DNA of 39,481 nucleotides from positions 1-39,481 of the forward strand of contig CAMOXX010000003.1 of NCBI GenBank assembly GCA_946629475.1. The letters are read 5' to 3'. A program made the position numbers and the translations under genes. The notes under the pieces were generated by a model that did no database searches, was not told where the DNA came from, and was given only the letters and a program-made list of their open reading frames with translations. Positions 1,475-32,905 of the stretch are shown here, in pieces; the first letter of the stretch is position 1; the number at the start of each line of letters is the position of its first letter. This DNA is from an uncultured Blautia sp. (lineage in GTDB: Bacteria; Bacillota; Clostridia; Lachnospirales; Lachnospiraceae).

Positions 1475-4000
1475 TCAAATCCTTTTGATTGAAAAGTCCT
1501 GGCTGTCCAGTGTGAGGTTCGGATTATAATAAGGATCCGGTGTCTGGAAAATTCCGGGCCAGTGTTTCTCCACCGTCGCAATTTCACGTCCAAACCTTTC
1601 AATCTTTTCCGGTGTATCCTCATATCCCCTCGACTTGGACTCGTAATGATACAGTTCACAGTATGGGTTGTAGACAATCAGGTAACCTGCATGCCGCACC
1701 TTCAGACAGAAATCAACGTCATTGAATGCCACAGCGATATCCGTGGAAAGACCGCCGACCTCTTCAAACACACTGCGCTTCACCATCATGCAGGCCGCGG
1801 TAACCGCGCTGTAATCCTGAGCGCAGATGATGCGGTGGCAGTATCCCGTATTCTGCCTCGGCTGCTGTACAAAGGCATGCCCCGCAATGCTTCCAAACCC
1901 GATGATAACGCCTGCATGCTGTATGGTATCGTCTCCATAGTAGAGCCTTGCGCCGACAATTCCGACATCCGGACGCATACAATAACCCAGAAGCTCCTCC
2001 ATCCAGTCCTCATTGATCACTTCCGTGTCATTATTGAGAAGCAGGTAGTAATCTCCCCGGGCAGCCGCAGCACCGAAATTGTTGATCGCGGAATAGTTGA
2101 ACGGACCGTCCCAGTAAATCACGCGGACACGCTCATTCGTCTCCTCCAGCTCACGGTAGAAATCAAAGGTCTCCTTCTCCGTGCTGTTGTTTTCTATCAC
2201 GATAATCTCATAATTCCGGTAGGTCGAACGGTTGATAATCGAATCGATGCACTTTTTGAGGTCTTCGATATGATCCTTGTTCGGAATCAGGATGGATACA
2301 AGCGGATCCTCCGCCCACTGATATCTTGTCCGGTACAGTCCGGGGTACTCCCCGAGTATGACCTGTGCAGGGATCCCGACCCTGTCAAAGTGAGCCTGAA
2401 CCGCCCGCTGCCCCGCAGTAAACGCATATCCCTTGCTCTCGGGATGGCTGGATGTGGACTGTTCGGAAATCCTCCAGTGATAAAGGATCCTCGGAATATG
2501 GCGGATTTTGTCCGTGTTTTCGGTACAGCGGAGAACAAAATCGTAGTCCTGCGCACCGTCAAACTCAGGCCTCAGCATTCCGGTCCTGTCGATCAGCTCC
2601 CTGCTGACCACGAGGAAATGGCAGATATAGTTGACCGTATACAGAAGATCCGGGTTGTAGTCCGGCTTAAAATGCGGATCCAGGAATTTCGTTCCCTTTG
2701 CGGACATTTTATCTTCATCAGAATAAATCATTTCCGTATCCGGGTACTGATTGATGACCTGGACGACCTCGAACAGCGCATCCGGGGTGAGAGTATCGTC
2801 ATGATCCGCGAATCCGATATAGTCTCCTGTCGCCGCCTTGATCGCGGCGTTTGTATTCTGCGCGATCCTCAGCTTTTCCGTGTGACGGATCACGCGGATC
2901 CGGGAATCGGATTCTGCCAGCGAGGTAAGGAGATCCGCAATCGGGGAATCCTCCCCGCTGCCGTCCGACAGGCACAGTTCCCAGTTCGAGTATGTCTGTT
3001 TTCTGACGGAATCCACCAGATCCTTCAGATAGTTTTCATCCGTGCAGTAGAGCGGAACAACGATCGAAATCTTCGGCATGTTTGAGAACACATGGTTTCT
3101 CTGTTCGGCCAGCTCCCTGGACGAACGCAGATGCTTCGGAAGCCAGTCCTCATACTTCATAATGTTGAGCCGCCGCTCCGCAAGCATCTGATTCAGAGGA
3201 TCCGAAATGAAGGCAGGGCCTTTCGCCTGAATCACCCTTACTCCGCGCACGGCAGCCTCCCAGGCTCCGCGGCGCGCCAGTTCCTTCACGCCCTTTGTGC
3301 CGACAAGGCGGACGCCCTTCTGACAGTATCCTTCAATTTTTGTCTCGAGCTGCTGGATTCTTCCGAGGCCGATCCTGTAAACGCTCTTCCGCCCTTCGCG
3401 GTCCCGCATCACAAGATAGGCGCATCCGCCTGTCACATTTTCCGCTTCGATCTGAAAACCGCATTTTGCCTCGATCCTGCTCTCTGTGAACATGCTCATG
3501 ACATCGCTGCGGATTCCTTTTTTGATTTTTACCGGTATCCTGTTTTTGTTTTCATCATAAAGACGAATTCCCAGAGGAGTGCGGGCCACGGCCCAGCCGC
3601 GCAGCTTCAGGGTTTTCTTTGCCCGGTCCCAGGCCTCTTCCTCGATATAATACTGCGGAAGTCCGCGCCGCGCCTCCAAATCCCTCACCGGCAGTTTCAG
3701 CCAGCGGCATTTTTCTCCTTCATACGTATAATAAACGGTCAGGGCTTTGTATCCGGACAGGTCCTCCGGCAGATGCACTTCAAGACCGGCAAACTTTCCC
3801 TTTGACTCCGGATCCACACGGATCCCCGAGAGCGCACCCGCCGACGGGTAGAAGAACACTTCGGTCACCAGCGTGTCATCGTCAATCATTGCGGTCACCT
3901 TGCAGTCTTCCGGAAGGATTCCCTGAATCAGATAAACATCCTCACGATCCAGCATGAACCGCTCTCTCACCACGTTAAAATCATTCTTCGTCATCCTCAA
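1475..4000 (-). CDS. Bi-domain GT2 glycosyltransferase
   Basis: 841 aa; domain 1 'KISIVVPLYCTDENYL...GDYIGFADHDDTLTPDALF', domain 2 'VSILIPNKDHIEDLKKCIDSI...YYLLLNNDTEVI'; 4-nt overlap with upstream ORF. Confidence 0.9.
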   Translation of the reverse strand: MRMTKNDFNVVRERFMLDREDVYLIQGILPEDCKVTAMIDDDTLVTEVFFYPSAGALSGIRVDPESKGKFAGLEVHLPEDLSGYKALTVYYTYEGEKCRWLKLPVRDLEARRGLPQYYIEEEAWDRAKKTLKLRGWAVARTPLGIRLYDENKNRIPVKIKKGIRSDVMSMFTESRIEAKCGFQIEAENVTGGCAYLVMRDREGRKSVYRIGLGRIQQLETKIEGYCQKGVRLVGTKGVKELARRGAWEAAVRGVRVIQAKGPAFISDPLNQMLAERRLNIMKYEDWLPKHLRSSRELAEQRNHVFSNMPKISIVVPLYCTDENYLKDLVDSVRKQTYSNWELCLSDGSGEDSPIADLLTSLAESDSRIRVIRHTEKLRIAQNTNAAIKAATGDYIGFADHDDTLTPDALFEVVQVINQYPDTEMIYSDEDKMSAKGTKFLDPHFKPDYNPDLLYTVNYICHFLVVSRELIDRTGMLRPEFDGAQDYDFVLRCTENTDKIRHIPRILYHWRISEQSTSSHPESKGYAFTAGQRAVQAHFDRVGIPAQVILGEYPGLYRTRYQWAEDPLVSILIPNKDHIEDLKKCIDSIINRSTYRNYEIIVIENNSTEKETFDFYRELEETNERVRVIYWDGPFNYSAINNFGAAAARGDYYLLLNNDTEVINEDWMEELLGYCMRPDVGIVGARLYYGDDTIQHAGVIIGFGSIAGHAFVQQPRQNTGYCHRIICAQDYSAVTAACMMVKRSVFEEVGGLSTDIAVAFNDVDFCLKVRHAGYLIVYNPYCELYHYESKSRGYEDTPEKIERFGREIATVEKHWPGIFQTPDPYYNPNLTLDSQDFSIKRI

Positions 4001-6456
4001 GCTTCCTCTTTTCCATGGTAGACATCTCTCTCGGAACCGTCCGTCCCGGATAATGTCAGATTCGGATTGTAATATGGATCGCCCGCCGCCAGAAATCCGC
4101 TGTGCCGCTGCCGGAACAACGCCGACTCTGCGGCAAACCTCGCGGCTTTTTCGGGCGTCGTCTCATATCCTCTGGATTTTGATTCATAATGATACAGAAT
4201 GGCTGACGGCACATACACCGTGTGCTCCCCTTCTGCTGCTGCCCTGAGGCAGAAATCCACATCGTTAAATGCCACTGCAAAATCAGGATCCAGTCCCCCG
4301 ATTTTGCGGTACACAGAGGTTTTCACCATCATGCAGGCGCCTGTCACCGCGCTTACCCTCCGGGCAGAAACGCTCTCAAAAAGCGGTCCGGTAAAGTCCA
4401 TCGGCTTTCCCAGATAGAGATGACCGGCTGTCCCGCCGATTCCCACGACAATTCCCGCATGCTGCAGGGTGTCGTCCGGGTAAAGAAGCCTCGCGCCTGC
4501 AATTCCCGTGCCCTCCTCCGTGCAGTACATCAGCATGCTCTCGATCCAGCCCGGAGAGATCACTTCGGTATCATTGTTCAGGAGAATCAGATACTCTCCG
4601 GAGGCTGCCGCCGATCCGAAATTGTTGATCCGCGAGTAATTAAACTCTCCGTGGTACCGAACGGTCCGCACACGAGGATCCTCCGTGATTTTCGAGTAGT
4701 ACTCCTCGGTCTCGCTTTCCGTGCTGTTATTCTCTATGATAATAATCTCAATATTCCGCCAGGTGCTTTTTGTGAGGATCGAATCGATGCATTTGCTCAG
4801 GTCCTCAATGTGATCCTTGTTCGGGATCAGAATGGACACACAGGGATTTCCGGAAAGCGATGCCGCAGTGAAGACCTCCGTCCGCTGTCCAGGCATTTCT
4901 CCGCTTTCAGGTGCCTCCGGCTCCTGTACCGCCCGATGGCACAGCACTCCCGGAATGTGGCGTATCCGGTCCGTCGCGGAAAAGCACTGCCGGAGAAGGC
5001 CATAGCCGTAATCCTCAATGGACGTAAAATCTCCTTCCAGCGGCTCCTGCGAATAAAACAGGCTCCGGCTGACCATGAACGGCAGTCCTATATAATTGCG
5101 GGACTGCAGAAAAACAGGATCCGGATCCGGCTTAAAGTGCGGCTCCGTAAACACTGTTTTTTCCCTGGACAGTCCCGGAAGATCCGGGCCGCTCCGGAAG
5201 CAGTGGTAATGATCCGTATCTCCATAGATCAGATCAGTTTCCGGATGCGGGTGCAGCACGGCAATATGCCGGTACAGCATATCCGGCGCGAACAGGCTGT
5301 CCTGAGAAGAAAAGATGATGTAGTCTCCCTTCGAAGCGTTTACCGCATCCGTCATCCGCTCCGCAAAGGATGCCTTTTGAGTAATCACAGAGCGGATTCT
5401 TCGGTCCTTGATACCGTCCGGCGATCCGGTGTCCAACCCGTCTTCCTTTACCACCAGCATCTCCCAGTTCCCGTAGCTCTGATTTTCTGCAGAGGCCATA
5501 AGGCGGGAGAGATCTTCTCCTTCCTGTCCGACTGGCACAATCATGCTGAACAGCGGAGCAGGCGAAAGATTTTTCCTTTTCTGCTTTTCCAGCTCTCTCC
5601 GGGATACGGCAGTCTGTTTCTGGTAAAAATCATAGTGATCATAAGATGAGCGGCTTTTTTCCTCCAGAAAGCCCATCAGGTAGAAAAAGCCTCTTTCCCT
5701 AAGGATCCGGAAGCTCTCCTGTCCCCTGTCACTGCAGAGATATCCAGCCACTCTTCCGATTCTTGTGTTCTGTACATCAAATGTGCAGAGATTAAGTTCA
5801 TATTCCAGAGAAGCAAACTCGTTTTTAAATTGCAGGACTACTTTTTTCCCTTCAACACAGGAGCGTGGAAAAGATATTTCGAATCCATAGCAGCAGGACA
5901 AATCCAGATCAAACACCTCGGAGAGATCTGTACGCCTGTGATACACAGGCTCTGCTCCGGGAACCGGAACTCTTCCATCACCGAGGACACACAGCTCCGC
6001 GTTTCCCGTCCGTGAGATATACCATCCCCTGATCCAGACATCGTCTCCCCGCTTCTCTGTTTTTTCGATCAGATACCGGAGAGAATCCGCGGCAAGCCCC
6101 TCCCGCATCTCTGAAGATGTGATTCTTGCGATACGATAATTCTTTCCTTTGCAGACCAGACGCACAAGCACCGGATCTCCTGATGGTATCACACCTGCAA
6201 TACCCGGAATCCGGATTTCAAAGCCCGGGCAGAGCTCTCCTGTTTCCCCTTCTGTCTCATGGAACAGGTCCGGGCAGGCCGAGACCACATCCGGGCGCGG
6301 ATAATGTTTGCTGACCAGCTGCAGGCGGGTATCTCCCGCCTTCGCCTGAAATTCGATATCGGTTTTATCAAAGACGGTCCAGCCCGTAAGAATCAGAATT
6401 CCTCCGTCTGCATACTCATATCGGCATGAATCCAGTGTCACTTCTCTGTCCGGCAT
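3997..6456 (-). CDS. Bi-domain GT2 glycosyltransferase, first GT domain looks degenerate
   Basis: 819 aa; C-terminal domain 'VSILIPNKDHIEDLSKCIDSI...YLILLNNDTEVIS'; N-terminal GT-like domain 'FSMIVPVGQEGEDL...DYIIFSSQDSLFAPDML'. Confidence 0.88.
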   Translation of the reverse strand: MPDREVTLDSCRYEYADGGILILTGWTVFDKTDIEFQAKAGDTRLQLVSKHYPRPDVVSACPDLFHETEGETGELCPGFEIRIPGIAGVIPSGDPVLVRLVCKGKNYRIARITSSEMREGLAADSLRYLIEKTEKRGDDVWIRGWYISRTGNAELCVLGDGRVPVPGAEPVYHRRTDLSEVFDLDLSCCYGFEISFPRSCVEGKKVVLQFKNEFASLEYELNLCTFDVQNTRIGRVAGYLCSDRGQESFRILRERGFFYLMGFLEEKSRSSYDHYDFYQKQTAVSRRELEKQKRKNLSPAPLFSMIVPVGQEGEDLSRLMASAENQSYGNWEMLVVKEDGLDTGSPDGIKDRRIRSVITQKASFAERMTDAVNASKGDYIIFSSQDSLFAPDMLYRHIAVLHPHPETDLIYGDTDHYHCFRSGPDLPGLSREKTVFTEPHFKPDPDPVFLQSRNYIGLPFMVSRSLFYSQEPLEGDFTSIEDYGYGLLRQCFSATDRIRHIPGVLCHRAVQEPEAPESGEMPGQRTEVFTAASLSGNPCVSILIPNKDHIEDLSKCIDSILTKSTWRNIEIIIIENNSTESETEEYYSKITEDPRVRTVRYHGEFNYSRINNFGSAAASGEYLILLNNDTEVISPGWIESMLMYCTEEGTGIAGARLLYPDDTLQHAGIVVGIGGTAGHLYLGKPMDFTGPLFESVSARRVSAVTGACMMVKTSVYRKIGGLDPDFAVAFNDVDFCLRAAAEGEHTVYVPSAILYHYESKSRGYETTPEKAARFAAESALFRQRHSGFLAAGDPYYNPNLTLSGTDGSERDVYHGKEEA

Positions 6457-25284: not shown

Positions 25285-26415
25285 TCAGGACAGCAGAAAG
25301 TCCATCATCACCTGATTGCTCACATGTATGCCATGCCTGGTGAGAAAAATCCTGTCGCCCTCCTCACAGAGGAGTCCGTACTCTTTGTGCTTCCGGATCA
25401 CCGGCTCATATATTTCGCGGACGGTGTGTCCGAACCGGTTCCGGAATTCCGTTTTGCTGATCCCTCCGGTCATACGGAGGCCCAGAAACATGAATTCGGA
25501 AATCCGGTCATTATCGGTCAGTTCCTGCCGGTCAGCAAGCATTTTTTCCCTGTTCCCGGCATTCACCAGATATTCTTCCATGTCATCTGTCACACGGTAT
25601 CTTTCATCCCGGCGCAGGGATGCTGCCGACAGGCCGAAGCCTATGTAATCCTTCCCCGTCCAGTAGGCCGAATTGTGCCGGGACTCCCTGCCCGGCAGCG
25701 CATAATTCGAAATCTCATACTGGCGGTAACCGTATCCTGCCAGTATCTCCGCCGTATCATCGTACATCCGGTATTCCGTATCTTCATCCGGAAGATCCAG
25801 ATCCATTCTTGAAAAAGGGGTGCCCTCCTCCACGATCAGGCTGTACGCACTGATATGCTCCGGAGCCAGGGAAGCGGCAGAATGCAGTGTTCTGCGCCAG
25901 TCCTCTGATGATTGCCCCGGAACCGCGAACATCAGGTCCACGTTGATATTGTCAAACCCTGCCGAGCGGGCGCATCCATAGCTTTTGATGAAGTCCTCAC
26001 AGGTATGGATTCTTCCCAGACGCCTGAGAATGCGGTCGTCCGTCGACTGCAGTCCGATGCTGAGCCTGTTCACGCCAAACTGCCTGTACGCAAAAAGCTT
26101 CTCCTCAGACAAAGTCCCCGGATTTGCCTCCATCGTAATCTCGGCTTCCGGGGATACCCTGAATACTCTGTATAGTTCATTAAAAACGTTTTCCATCAGG
26201 GACACATCCACGATGGACGGGGTTCCTCCTCCGATAAAAACCGTATCTGCCCTGGTCCCCTCTTCGCCGCACATGTGGATCTCGCGGACCAGGGCATCCA
26301 TGTAGGCCCGGATCCTGCCGCTTTCCGCCGGGCCGGAAGGAAAATCGCAGTACAGGCATTTCCGGACGCAGAACGGAATGTGGATGTAAATGCCGATTCC
26401 TTCCGCGTCCTTCAT
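25285..26415 (-). CDS. hemW: Radical SAM heme chaperone / coproporphyrinogen-III-oxidase-like
   Basis: 'GIGIYIHIPFCVRKCLYCDFPS' CxxxCxxC; true start taken as the ATG at 26415, 1 nt after the upstream stop. Confidence 0.92.
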   Translation of the reverse strand: MKDAEGIGIYIHIPFCVRKCLYCDFPSGPAESGRIRAYMDALVREIHMCGEEGTRADTVFIGGGTPSIVDVSLMENVFNELYRVFRVSPEAEITMEANPGTLSEEKLFAYRQFGVNRLSIGLQSTDDRILRRLGRIHTCEDFIKSYGCARSAGFDNINVDLMFAVPGQSSEDWRRTLHSAASLAPEHISAYSLIVEEGTPFSRMDLDLPDEDTEYRMYDDTAEILAGYGYRQYEISNYALPGRESRHNSAYWTGKDYIGFGLSAASLRRDERYRVTDDMEEYLVNAGNREKMLADRQELTDNDRISEFMFLGLRMTGGISKTEFRNRFGHTVREIYEPVIRKHKEYGLLCEEGDRIFLTRHGIHVSNQVMMDFLLS

Positions 26416-26416
26416 C

Positions 26417-27013
26417 TCAGCCGTAGTTTTCATCATAGCCGTAGTCATAGTTCCAGTTGTAATCATAGCTTTCGCCGTATCCGTAGCTTTCGTCGTAGCC
26501 ATAGCTCTCGTCGTAACCGTAGCTCTCGTCGTAACCATAGCTCTCGTCGTAACCGTAGCTCTCATCGTAGCCGTAGCTCTCGTCATAACCGGAGCTTTCA
26601 TCGTAGCCGTAGCTCTCGTCATAACCGGAGCTTTCATCGTAGCTGCTCTCGTCATAGCCGTAGTTTTCGTCAGAAGCAGCAGATTCGGCAGAAGCCTCTT
26701 CCGCATTGTCCGTCACCGGGATTTCCTCCTCATCAGGCATCCGGTTTACCTCGGAAGCTCTGCCGGAATAAGGGTTTTTCCCGTCCGCGGCATCTGCCAG
26801 ATACTGGTTTACCATGGTAATCCCGTCCTTCGCGGTGGTCGCCGCCGGGTATTTCACAACCGGCGCCGGTGTCGGCGAGGGCGCCGGAGTTATGGTAAGC
26901 TTAACGACCTCGGTCGCGTATTTATCCACTTCAGCGCCTTTTCCGCATCCGGTAAGGACAGGTGCCGCGAGCAGAATCAGCCCGCCCAGCATACAGTGTA
27001 TCTTTCCTGTCAT
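26417..27013 (-). CDS. Lipoprotein with Tyr/Asp/Glu/Ser-rich hexapeptide-repeat tail
   Basis: Lipobox 'APVLTGC', linker 'TPAPSPTPAPVVK', tail of (YGYDES)n; ATG at 27013 preferred over the upstream TTG. Confidence 0.75.
   Translation of the reverse strand: MTGKIHCMLGGLILLAAPVLTGCGKGAEVDKYATEVVKLTITPAPSPTPAPVVKYPAATTAKDGITMVNQYLADAADGKNPYSGRASEVNRMPDEEEIPVTDNAEEASAESAASDENYGYDESSYDESSGYDESYGYDESSGYDESYGYDESYGYDESYGYDESYGYDESYGYDESYGYGESYDYNWNYDYGYDENYG
26420..26674 (-). repeat. 18-bp tandem repeat encoding YGYDES units
   Basis: Visible near-identical 'cgtagctctcgtcgtaac/catagctctcgtcgtaac' units, about 10 copies plus degenerate flanks. Confidence 0.92.
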
Positions 27014-27058
27014 TCCATTCCTCAATTATATGATTGATTACAGTGCCAAAATACCCCT

Positions 27059-30701: not shown

Positions 30702-32615
30702 CTATCCTCCGAAGCGGAAGCTTCCGAGGCGGATTTTGCGGTTCAGGTACTGGATCAGTCCGTTGACCGTGTCACTGGCCATCTCCTGGGCAATGCAGCG
30801 CTGTGCCAGGGCCACATTATCTGTAATGATATTGTCGACCTTGCGGTCGATCATCAGGTTGATGGAATCCCTGCTGTTCACCGTCCAGGCATAGATCTGC
30901 TTGCCTGCATTGTGTACCCTTCGGACCAGGCTCTGGGTAATGCTGCTCTGCTTCACACTGAAATGGTCCGCATAAATGAGCCGGTTTACATTTCCATAGG
31001 CAAATGCCGTGACATAGACCGTGGTAATTGTTTCGTCCAGCTGCTTCACCTTCGAGATGGACTGATACTGCTGTGATGTCACCACGCACCGATCCGTAAA
31101 CTCTTTCTCGTGCAGCAGCTCAACCAGGGCCTCCTCCAGCCCCTCTTCCTGTTCTGACGGCTTGATTTCAATGTTCAGACGGATTCCTGTCTCCTTCGCA
31201 AAGTCAATCACTTCTGACAGGAGCGGGATTCTTTCCCCCGCAAACTCCTCCCCAAGGAAGCTGCCGGCATCCAGTTTCATGATCTCATCATAGGTCAGAT
31301 CCCAGGCCATCGCCCTTACGCCGGTCGTTCTGAAAAAGGAGTTGTCATGCATGGTAAAAATCTGTCCGTCGCGTGAAAGATGGACATCCAGCTCGATCCA
31401 GTCCGCTCCCGCATCGAACGCGCCTTGAAAGGCCGCCATGGTGTTTTCAGGAAACTGCTTGGACGCCCCGCGGTGGGCAGTGACTTCCATCGTCTTTAAG
31501 AATTCAATGCTCCTGTTCATCTCCCCCCGGTGCACCTGGTACACATAGAAGGTACAGGCACTCACCGCTGCGAGGAACAAAAGACTCTGCAGGACACCGA
31601 ATGCCCTCCGGTGCTTCTCCCGAAACCGGTCCTCCCGCGCCGAGTGGTGAAAATTCTTTCGGTCATGCACCTCTCTGATGGTTGTCTCAGGCTCCTTCTT
31701 CATGGTCTTGTGATTATAAAAAAGAAGGCTGATCATCAGACAGGTGACCGGCGGCCCCAGCACGGTAAAGAGAACCAGCAGGACCACAAGAACAATCTTT
31801 ACGATCGAGAACAGAATCTGGGACAGCAGAAACAGTCGGGAGAAAAACCGCCCGATCAGAACCGCGGAGAGTATGCCGAGCGCAAGCATAAGCATGTACA
31901 GGACATACAGAAAAAGCTGGGCCGCCAGTGCGGAAAGCAGATCCCGGATCCGGCTTCCCTTTCCGAGATTCACACTCTTCCGGACTGCGGTTTTTCCGTC
32001 CGCATTCTCAAGCGTATAATACCAGAACGTGTACATCAGTCTTCCGTATGGGATCGAAAGAGCCAGTATCACAGAGATCACGCCAGCGTAAAGGCTTCCG
32101 TTCTTCATGCTGATCATGATCATGTTCGGCATCGAATAGGAGGACATAATCTCCGGGATCTGCCCCACACTGAAAAACGGGAGCATCAGGTACACGATAA
32201 AGATCAGCCTCCTGTTCCCCCTGCGGAAAAGGCCGGCCACATTCCGGACCGCAAAACGGATCGTATCCAGGATATCCGTCCGCCGCCCCGACCGTGAGCA
32301 GTGCACCATATAGATGACCGCGCTCATATCAACCAGGGTATAAAACCCGATAAAAGCAAGAATTATCAACAGGATCAGAAGAATCAGCGGATGCCGGAGA
32401 GACTTCTTCAGATTTTCCAGTGTCAGGTAGTGATATCCCGCTGCACTCATTGTCAGGTCGAACGCGCCGTACAGCAGCGGGACAAAGAGCGTAACACCCA
32501 GCAGCTTGTAGAGGATTTCAAACCACCAGAACATCCGCCCGTTCACGGTCAGAAGATGCGCCGCCTTCCCGGTCCGCGAATTCCGGAACCGGGATCGCCT
32601 GTCACTCCTGTTCAA
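30702..32615 (-). CDS. Glycerophosphodiester phosphodiesterase with large N-terminal membrane domain
   Basis: 'VTAHRGASKQFPENTMAAFQGAFDAGADWIELDVHLSRDGQIFTMHD' GDPD motif following several TM segments. Confidence 0.93.
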   Translation of the reverse strand: MNRSDRRSRFRNSRTGKAAHLLTVNGRMFWWFEILYKLLGVTLFVPLLYGAFDLTMSAAGYHYLTLENLKKSLRHPLILLILLIILAFIGFYTLVDMSAVIYMVHCSRSGRRTDILDTIRFAVRNVAGLFRRGNRRLIFIVYLMLPFFSVGQIPEIMSSYSMPNMIMISMKNGSLYAGVISVILALSIPYGRLMYTFWYYTLENADGKTAVRKSVNLGKGSRIRDLLSALAAQLFLYVLYMLMLALGILSAVLIGRFFSRLFLLSQILFSIVKIVLVVLLVLFTVLGPPVTCLMISLLFYNHKTMKKEPETTIREVHDRKNFHHSAREDRFREKHRRAFGVLQSLLFLAAVSACTFYVYQVHRGEMNRSIEFLKTMEVTAHRGASKQFPENTMAAFQGAFDAGADWIELDVHLSRDGQIFTMHDNSFFRTTGVRAMAWDLTYDEIMKLDAGSFLGEEFAGERIPLLSEVIDFAKETGIRLNIEIKPSEQEEGLEEALVELLHEKEFTDRCVVTSQQYQSISKVKQLDETITTVYVTAFAYGNVNRLIYADHFSVKQSSITQSLVRRVHNAGKQIYAWTVNSRDSINLMIDRKVDNIITDNVALAQRCIAQEMASDTVNGLIQYLNRKIRLGSFRFGG

Positions 32616-32889
32616 GTTCCGTCAGGAACAGTTCATAATAATCATCCTCGCCCTGCAGCATCGGAGAATTCTCGCCTCCCCCGTTTGTGCTTCGCTTCAT
32701 CGACGCATAGCTGTCCTCTCCACAGGCGATCAGATCCATCTCATACAGAGGAAACCCCTCCTCCGTACTGATCCGGCAGAATGTCGAAACCGGATTTTCG
32801 TGTTTTTTTGTCCCCAGCAGCTTTTCCTTCAGGGCAGGATTGCAGCGTGCTTTCTTTTTCAAACCGTCCAGTGCTTCCCATACTTCCAT
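32602..32889 (-). CDS. Small Nif11-leader-like conserved hypothetical peptide
   Basis: 95 aa; 'NPALKEKLLGTKKHENPVSTFCRISTEEGFPLYEMDLI' resembles Nif11 leader layout; C-terminal 'MKRSTNGGGENSPMLQGEDDYYELF'; overlaps GDPD start by 14 nt. Confidence 0.65.
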   Translation of the reverse strand: MEVWEALDGLKKKARCNPALKEKLLGTKKHENPVSTFCRISTEEGFPLYEMDLIACGEDSYASMKRSTNGGGENSPMLQGEDDYYELFLTELEQE

Positions 32890-32905
32890 GGTATGTCTCC
32901 TGTCA

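Follow-up and report, generated by a model that had tools for sequence, protein, structure and literature searches.

A Small Orphan Gene and Its Surroundings

The window, by which is meant the whole stretch of 39,481 nucleotides analyzed, carries on its minus strand an ORF of 95 codons with an ATG start, the limits of which were read exactly from the sequence (Table 1). A Shine-Dalgarno-like element precedes it, and such an element, at positions -18 to -4, is also present in 60 of 81 relatives. On the same strand, genes for a periplasmic-binding protein, an ABC ATPase, a permease, and a Gfo/Idh/MocA oxidoreductase lie upstream, and GDPD and patatin genes lie downstream. The GDPD protein matches PF03009 (E = 8e-44) and PF10110 (E = 3e-23). 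Its gene has a TTG start at 32615 and shares 14 bp of its 5' end with the 95-aa ORF, bearing out the overlap between the two genes reported in the initial annotation. That annotation had also stated that no radical SAM protein, lanthipeptide synthase, or peptidase is adjacent; this held, as no maturase or peptidase was found beside the ORF in the window and no conserved RiPP machinery was found beside its relatives.

Elsewhere in the window, a lipoprotein-like ORF (26417..27025, minus strand) has LTGCGK near its N terminus and many imperfect tandem YGYDESYGYDESS repeats at its end. In a different frame, the repeat DNA would give the downstream HemW-like radical-SAM ORF (25285..26706) an N-terminal extension rich in Thr and Met, which leaves the start of that gene uncertain.

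Table 1. Features of the 95-aa ORF and its overlapping neighbor
Feature	Coordinates	Strand	Basis
95-aa orphan Nif11-like protein, whole gene	32602..32889	minus	ORF list; conserved family; protein-level purifying selection
Shine-Dalgarno-like AGGAGA, upstream of ATG	32895..32903	minus	Sequence read directly
N-terminal Nif11-like four-helix domain, residues 1-61	32707..32889	minus	AF2; hhalign; PF07862/TIGR03798 in relatives; PDB 9zn4
KRSTNGGGENSP segment (residues 65-76); highest conservation, predicted disorder	32662..32697	minus	Conservation; pN/pS; pLDDT
Amphipathic helix at the C terminus (residues 84-94), after near-invariant D83	32608..32640	minus	AF2 model; conservation
Membrane glycerophosphodiester phosphodiesterase (GDPD) neighbor, outside the conserved system	30702..32615	minus	PF03009; PF10110

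Distribution and Genomic Neighborhoods of the Family

One contig scan of species-representative genomes identified 189 relatives of the 95-aa protein, with Lachnospiraceae accounting for nearly all of the best 80 of these 189. Using profile searches, the family was found in 33 of 60 genomes of the host's own genus, in 28 of 200 Lachnospiraceae sampled at one genome per genus (14% of genera), in 22 of 391 Clostridia (the weakest match, E = 0.006, is spurious), and in 4 to 5 of 399 across the whole phylum, where the sole nonclostridial match is doubtful (E = 0.003). Carriers include the dominant human gut genera Blautia, Dorea, Mediterraneibacter, Anaerostipes, and Coprococcus. The host's genus takes in the genome of Blautia luti, so the host itself is probably Blautia-like. 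A single copy was present in 41 of 47 genomes, and no member was found in the plasmids searched. The family, which is unnamed, is restricted to Clostridia, chromosomal, and patchy in its occurrence, and this patchiness suggests a function that is dispensable yet repeatedly retained. Two degenerate copies were also observed: a frameshifted second copy at L032 (1915-2290), about 4 kb from the intact one, and a copy at L195 (about 1570-1775) that runs on in an unrelated frame once past KRSTR.

Among pairs of loci whose family proteins are at least 85% identical, 70% share a neighboring gene family, compared with 6% of pairs below 60% identity, and the families shared by the latter are mostly generic (MATE, nitroreductase). 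No neighbor is conserved among the family loci, and the genes flanking distant members are likewise unrelated. The GDPD gene and the sugar-transport operon were considered as a functional context and rejected, as the GDPD family occurs in only six loci and the neighbors of other relatives are unrelated; the overlap with GDPD is a local arrangement that is common only to close relatives and gives no clue to function.

Of the family matches, two come from viral contigs and a third from a scaffold labeled "Bacteriophage sp." that is unverified. These matches, together with the patchy distribution and the few genomes with truncated or degenerate copies, are what might be expected of a selfish or phage/defense-related small protein carried by mobile elements; such an origin is nevertheless highly improbable given the predominance of single copies, the lack of any plasmid match, and the absence of a credible match in PADLOC or PHROGs. 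A phage or plasmid gene was rejected, the viral matches being explained as flanks or unverified sequence. On the IMG/VR contig L106 (1223-3912), a LysM/GH18-like ORF comes after the family gene, as does a large ORF of the serine-recombinase type on the opposite strand; the end of the latter overlaps the family gene, suggesting that an element inserted into the neighboring gene. With this site-specific recombinase nearby, the locus looks like bacterial DNA beside an insertion.

Nif11 Ancestry and Constraint on the Tail

The AF2 model contains four helices over residues 1 to 61 with a pLDDT of 91.7 (helices at 3-16, 18-29, 33-43, and 50-61), and this domain includes a near-invariant F37 and the invariant C38 and G45. 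The N terminus had been likened to Nif11-type leaders, and the ancestry stood up in the family as a whole, although the window protein searched alone gave no Pfam match. PF07862 matched 7 of 28 close members and, in a diverse set of 21, 11 at E ≤ 1, with a best E of 4.1e-5; TIGR03798 gave weak matches to 10 of 21 members, the best at E = 2e-4. When genomes were searched, unguided, with the Pfam Nif11 model, one member protein, present in two genomes, scored 24.3 bits against a curated cutoff of 23.8. In hhalign, the family profile matched that of seven genuine Nif11 leaders from clostridia with a probability of 90.7% (E = 1.3e-6, 47 columns). The top PDB sequence match of the family profile was 9zn4, a 77-residue chain described as "Nif11 domain-containing protein" (residues 5-59, E = 0.0036), with the match ending before the STNGG tail. 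Foldseek searches of the models against PDB and BFVD gave nothing significant; 9zn4, which may be absent from that library, was not returned. The N-terminal ~55 residues can be assigned, with moderate-to-good confidence, to a divergent Nif11 domain.

In several members the alignment of the N-terminal ~50 residues to PF07862 spans almost the full model. The family differs in that a Cys in helix 3 is invariant in every member, and in that the conserved C-terminal STNGG/YExF segment lies outside the Pfam model. It is a new form of Nif11-domain protein, not a new fold. No model in Pfam, NCBIfam, PADLOC, or PHROGs covers the whole protein; in the literature searched, GGGENSP, STNGGG, and KRSTNGG appeared in no paper, and Nif11 and Blautia occurred together only in a review.

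The C-terminal segment singled out in the initial annotation, MKRSTNGGGENSPMLQGEDDYYELF, corresponds to residues 64 to 88 (32700..32626), and its STNGGGENSP portion had been described as having the look of a strongly conserved functional site. Homologue alignment and selection analysis both upheld the strong conservation. Across 115 distinct relatives, S67, N69, and G70, as well as C38 and G45, are identical in every sequence, and per-residue conservation is 99% at G71, P76, and D83, 98% at F88, and 96% at R66, with Y85 also near invariant. The invariance of S67, N69, and G70 extends to a 21-sequence set reaching down to 23% identity. As pattern-based recruitment of relatives was biased towards MKRSTNGG, 35 profile-found members were checked separately, and in these the mean frequency of the commonest residue is 0.82 at residues 65 to 76 versus about 0.51 at residues 1 to 58. 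In distant members from other clostridial families, [KR]S[TVQC]NG[GS] and the D..YE.F helix are kept and ENSP is lost; thus, SxNGG together with the terminal helix makes up the core signature.

From 432 related pairs (72 to 97% identical and not independent of one another), pN/pS rose from 0.013 in KRSTNGGGENSP to 0.055 across the C-terminal part and to 0.235 across the N-terminal domain. As pS was 0.75 to 0.80 in every part (about 0.77), saturation at synonymous sites is near, which makes the absolute ratios rough but not their ranking; this near saturation rules out conservation at the DNA or RNA level. The 189 relatives and the invariance of residues despite such synonymous divergence place the family well outside what chance would give. 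In the AF2 model, which had 28 input sequences, residues 59 to 81, motif included, have a pLDDT below 50, and the disorder of the tail is predicted from this low pLDDT only; a helix follows at residues 84 to 94. No signal or membrane segment was seen in the protein.

The loop rich in Gly, Asn, and Ser and C38, both invariant, could together with a conserved acidic patch belong to a ligand-binding mini-protein, a sensor or carrier in which the SxNGG(G)xN loop and Cys38 bind a nucleotide, metal, or metabolite. We regard this as distinctly unlikely, as no known binding fold or motif was matched and the loop on its own is predicted to be unfolded.

RiPP Context and a Possible Docking Role

Compared with TIGR03798 (N11P), the family shares the leader-like N-terminal domain and a size of ~90 aa, but it lacks the ELSDEELEAVAGG cleavage motif, a variable core, paralogous expansion, and a nearby maturase or transporter. 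The double-glycine leader motif (E-L-x-x-[VI]-x-G-G), with its acidic -8 and hydrophobic -7 positions, is missing from the GGGENSP group: before NGG, position -8 is M, I, L, or Q and never acidic, position -7 is K, R, or N in this group, and a K or R at -6 is conserved. The cores of RiPPs tend to diversify. Hypervariability of the core in such precursors was stressed by Haft in 2010 (PMC2887384). The tail of the present family is, in contrast to the core that TIGR03798 describes, its most conserved part.

Maturation enzymes were surveyed in 23 carrier genomes and in 19 noncarriers from the same family. LANC was found in 0/23 carriers, C39 peptidase in 4/23, and SPASM in 17/23, against 6/19, 8/19, and 16/19 noncarriers, respectively; LANC is therefore rarer in carriers (Fisher p = 0.005), in an exploratory, uncorrected comparison that may be phylogenetic. 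All three were missing from six of the 23 carriers, five of which have an intact gene. These counts, with the missing double-glycine signature, counter-indicate a lanthipeptide, a C39-processed RiPP, or a SPASM RiPP. No RiPP machinery was colocalized with the family gene in about 100 loci. The lack of RiPP context, the conserved tail, and the missing double-glycine leader signature make it unlikely that the protein is an ordinary RiPP precursor.

A separate RiPP cluster is present in the same genome on contig C108 (L163, 443-8951), comprising two SPASM radical-SAM proteins, an HlyD-like protein, a C39 ABC transporter, and a second ABC transporter. Its precursor (91 aa, 3770-4045) has a leader ending in ...EISDEELDEAAGG and the core CVCICCAHNSPTVCGFPR; the short leader is Nif11-like by eye only and has no Pfam match. 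Unlike the 95-aa gene, it is flanked by the two SPASM proteins and the C39 ABC transporter and has a double-Gly site and a Cys-rich core.

Such machinery might in principle act in trans on the 95-aa protein, whose N terminus is related to Nif11 leaders, with the conserved STNGGGENSP...YELF tail as the core and a conserved product, e.g., a cofactor or signal. RiPP cores can be strongly conserved, as in PqqA and SCIFF. We consider this unlikely: the C108 cluster already includes a precursor of its own, complete with a proper cleavage site, colocalization and the leader signature are both lacking, and the five carriers with an intact gene have none of the three protein types surveyed (SPASM, LANC, and C39). 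Cleavage after NGG, with secretion of the ~20- to 25-residue tail (GENSPMLEGEDDFYELF...) as a pheromone-like signal, is very unlikely. The NGG does lie near the position of the double-glycine site of Nif11 leaders, and the tails are of fairly uniform length (19 to 30 residues), but 19 of the 23 carriers have no C39 transporter, no adjacent receptor, kinase, or transporter is conserved, signals usually diversify between species, and conservation is equal on either side of NGG, unlike at a cleavage site.

The reading we favor, and hold to be moderately probable, is that of a stand-alone, Nif11-derived small cytosolic protein acting as an adaptor or modulator through binding of its tail to a conserved, unlinked partner. 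The tail is read as a docking segment because, in a protein that is probably cytosolic, unlinked, and mostly single copy, a flexible motif is under tighter constraint than the folded domain. Three parts would be involved: the four-helix domain, which may hold or present the tail; the flexible, glycine-rich linear motif KRSTNGGGENSP; and the acidic/aromatic amphipathic helix DDxYExF. The tail would form the functional surface, docking one partner encoded elsewhere, for which an enzyme, a regulator, or a ribosome or RNA polymerase component are candidates, and the protein itself would remain unmodified. Counting against an adaptor are the patchiness (about half of the genus and 14% of Lachnospiraceae genera), which is unusual for a housekeeping adaptor, and the fact that a conserved core alone is compatible with a RiPP. 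The earlier suggestion of a regulatory or adaptor protein rather than a RiPP precursor is therefore retained in part: a RiPP role is unlikely and an adaptor, possibly regulatory, is the best remaining reading, but neither a partner nor a genetic link to one was found.

More tentatively, the family may represent Clostridia-wide Nif11-domain proteins that never became RiPPs and whose near-immutable tail docks a conserved cellular partner. If so, the Nif11 domain would have a nonbiosynthetic role from which leader peptides could have been recruited. A Nif11 domain with an invariant tail and no maturation machinery offers a small, concrete, and testable handle in dominant gut genera, and it cautions against the labeling of such genes as orphan bacteriocin precursors by genome-mining pipelines. 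Neither neighborhoods nor a consistent fusion pointed to a partner for the tail; the single fusion, at L074 (4871-5746), with a type of membrane domain found near no other family locus, joins a relative via NTETQNSQ repeats to this C-terminal domain, which is DUF1232-like by eye.
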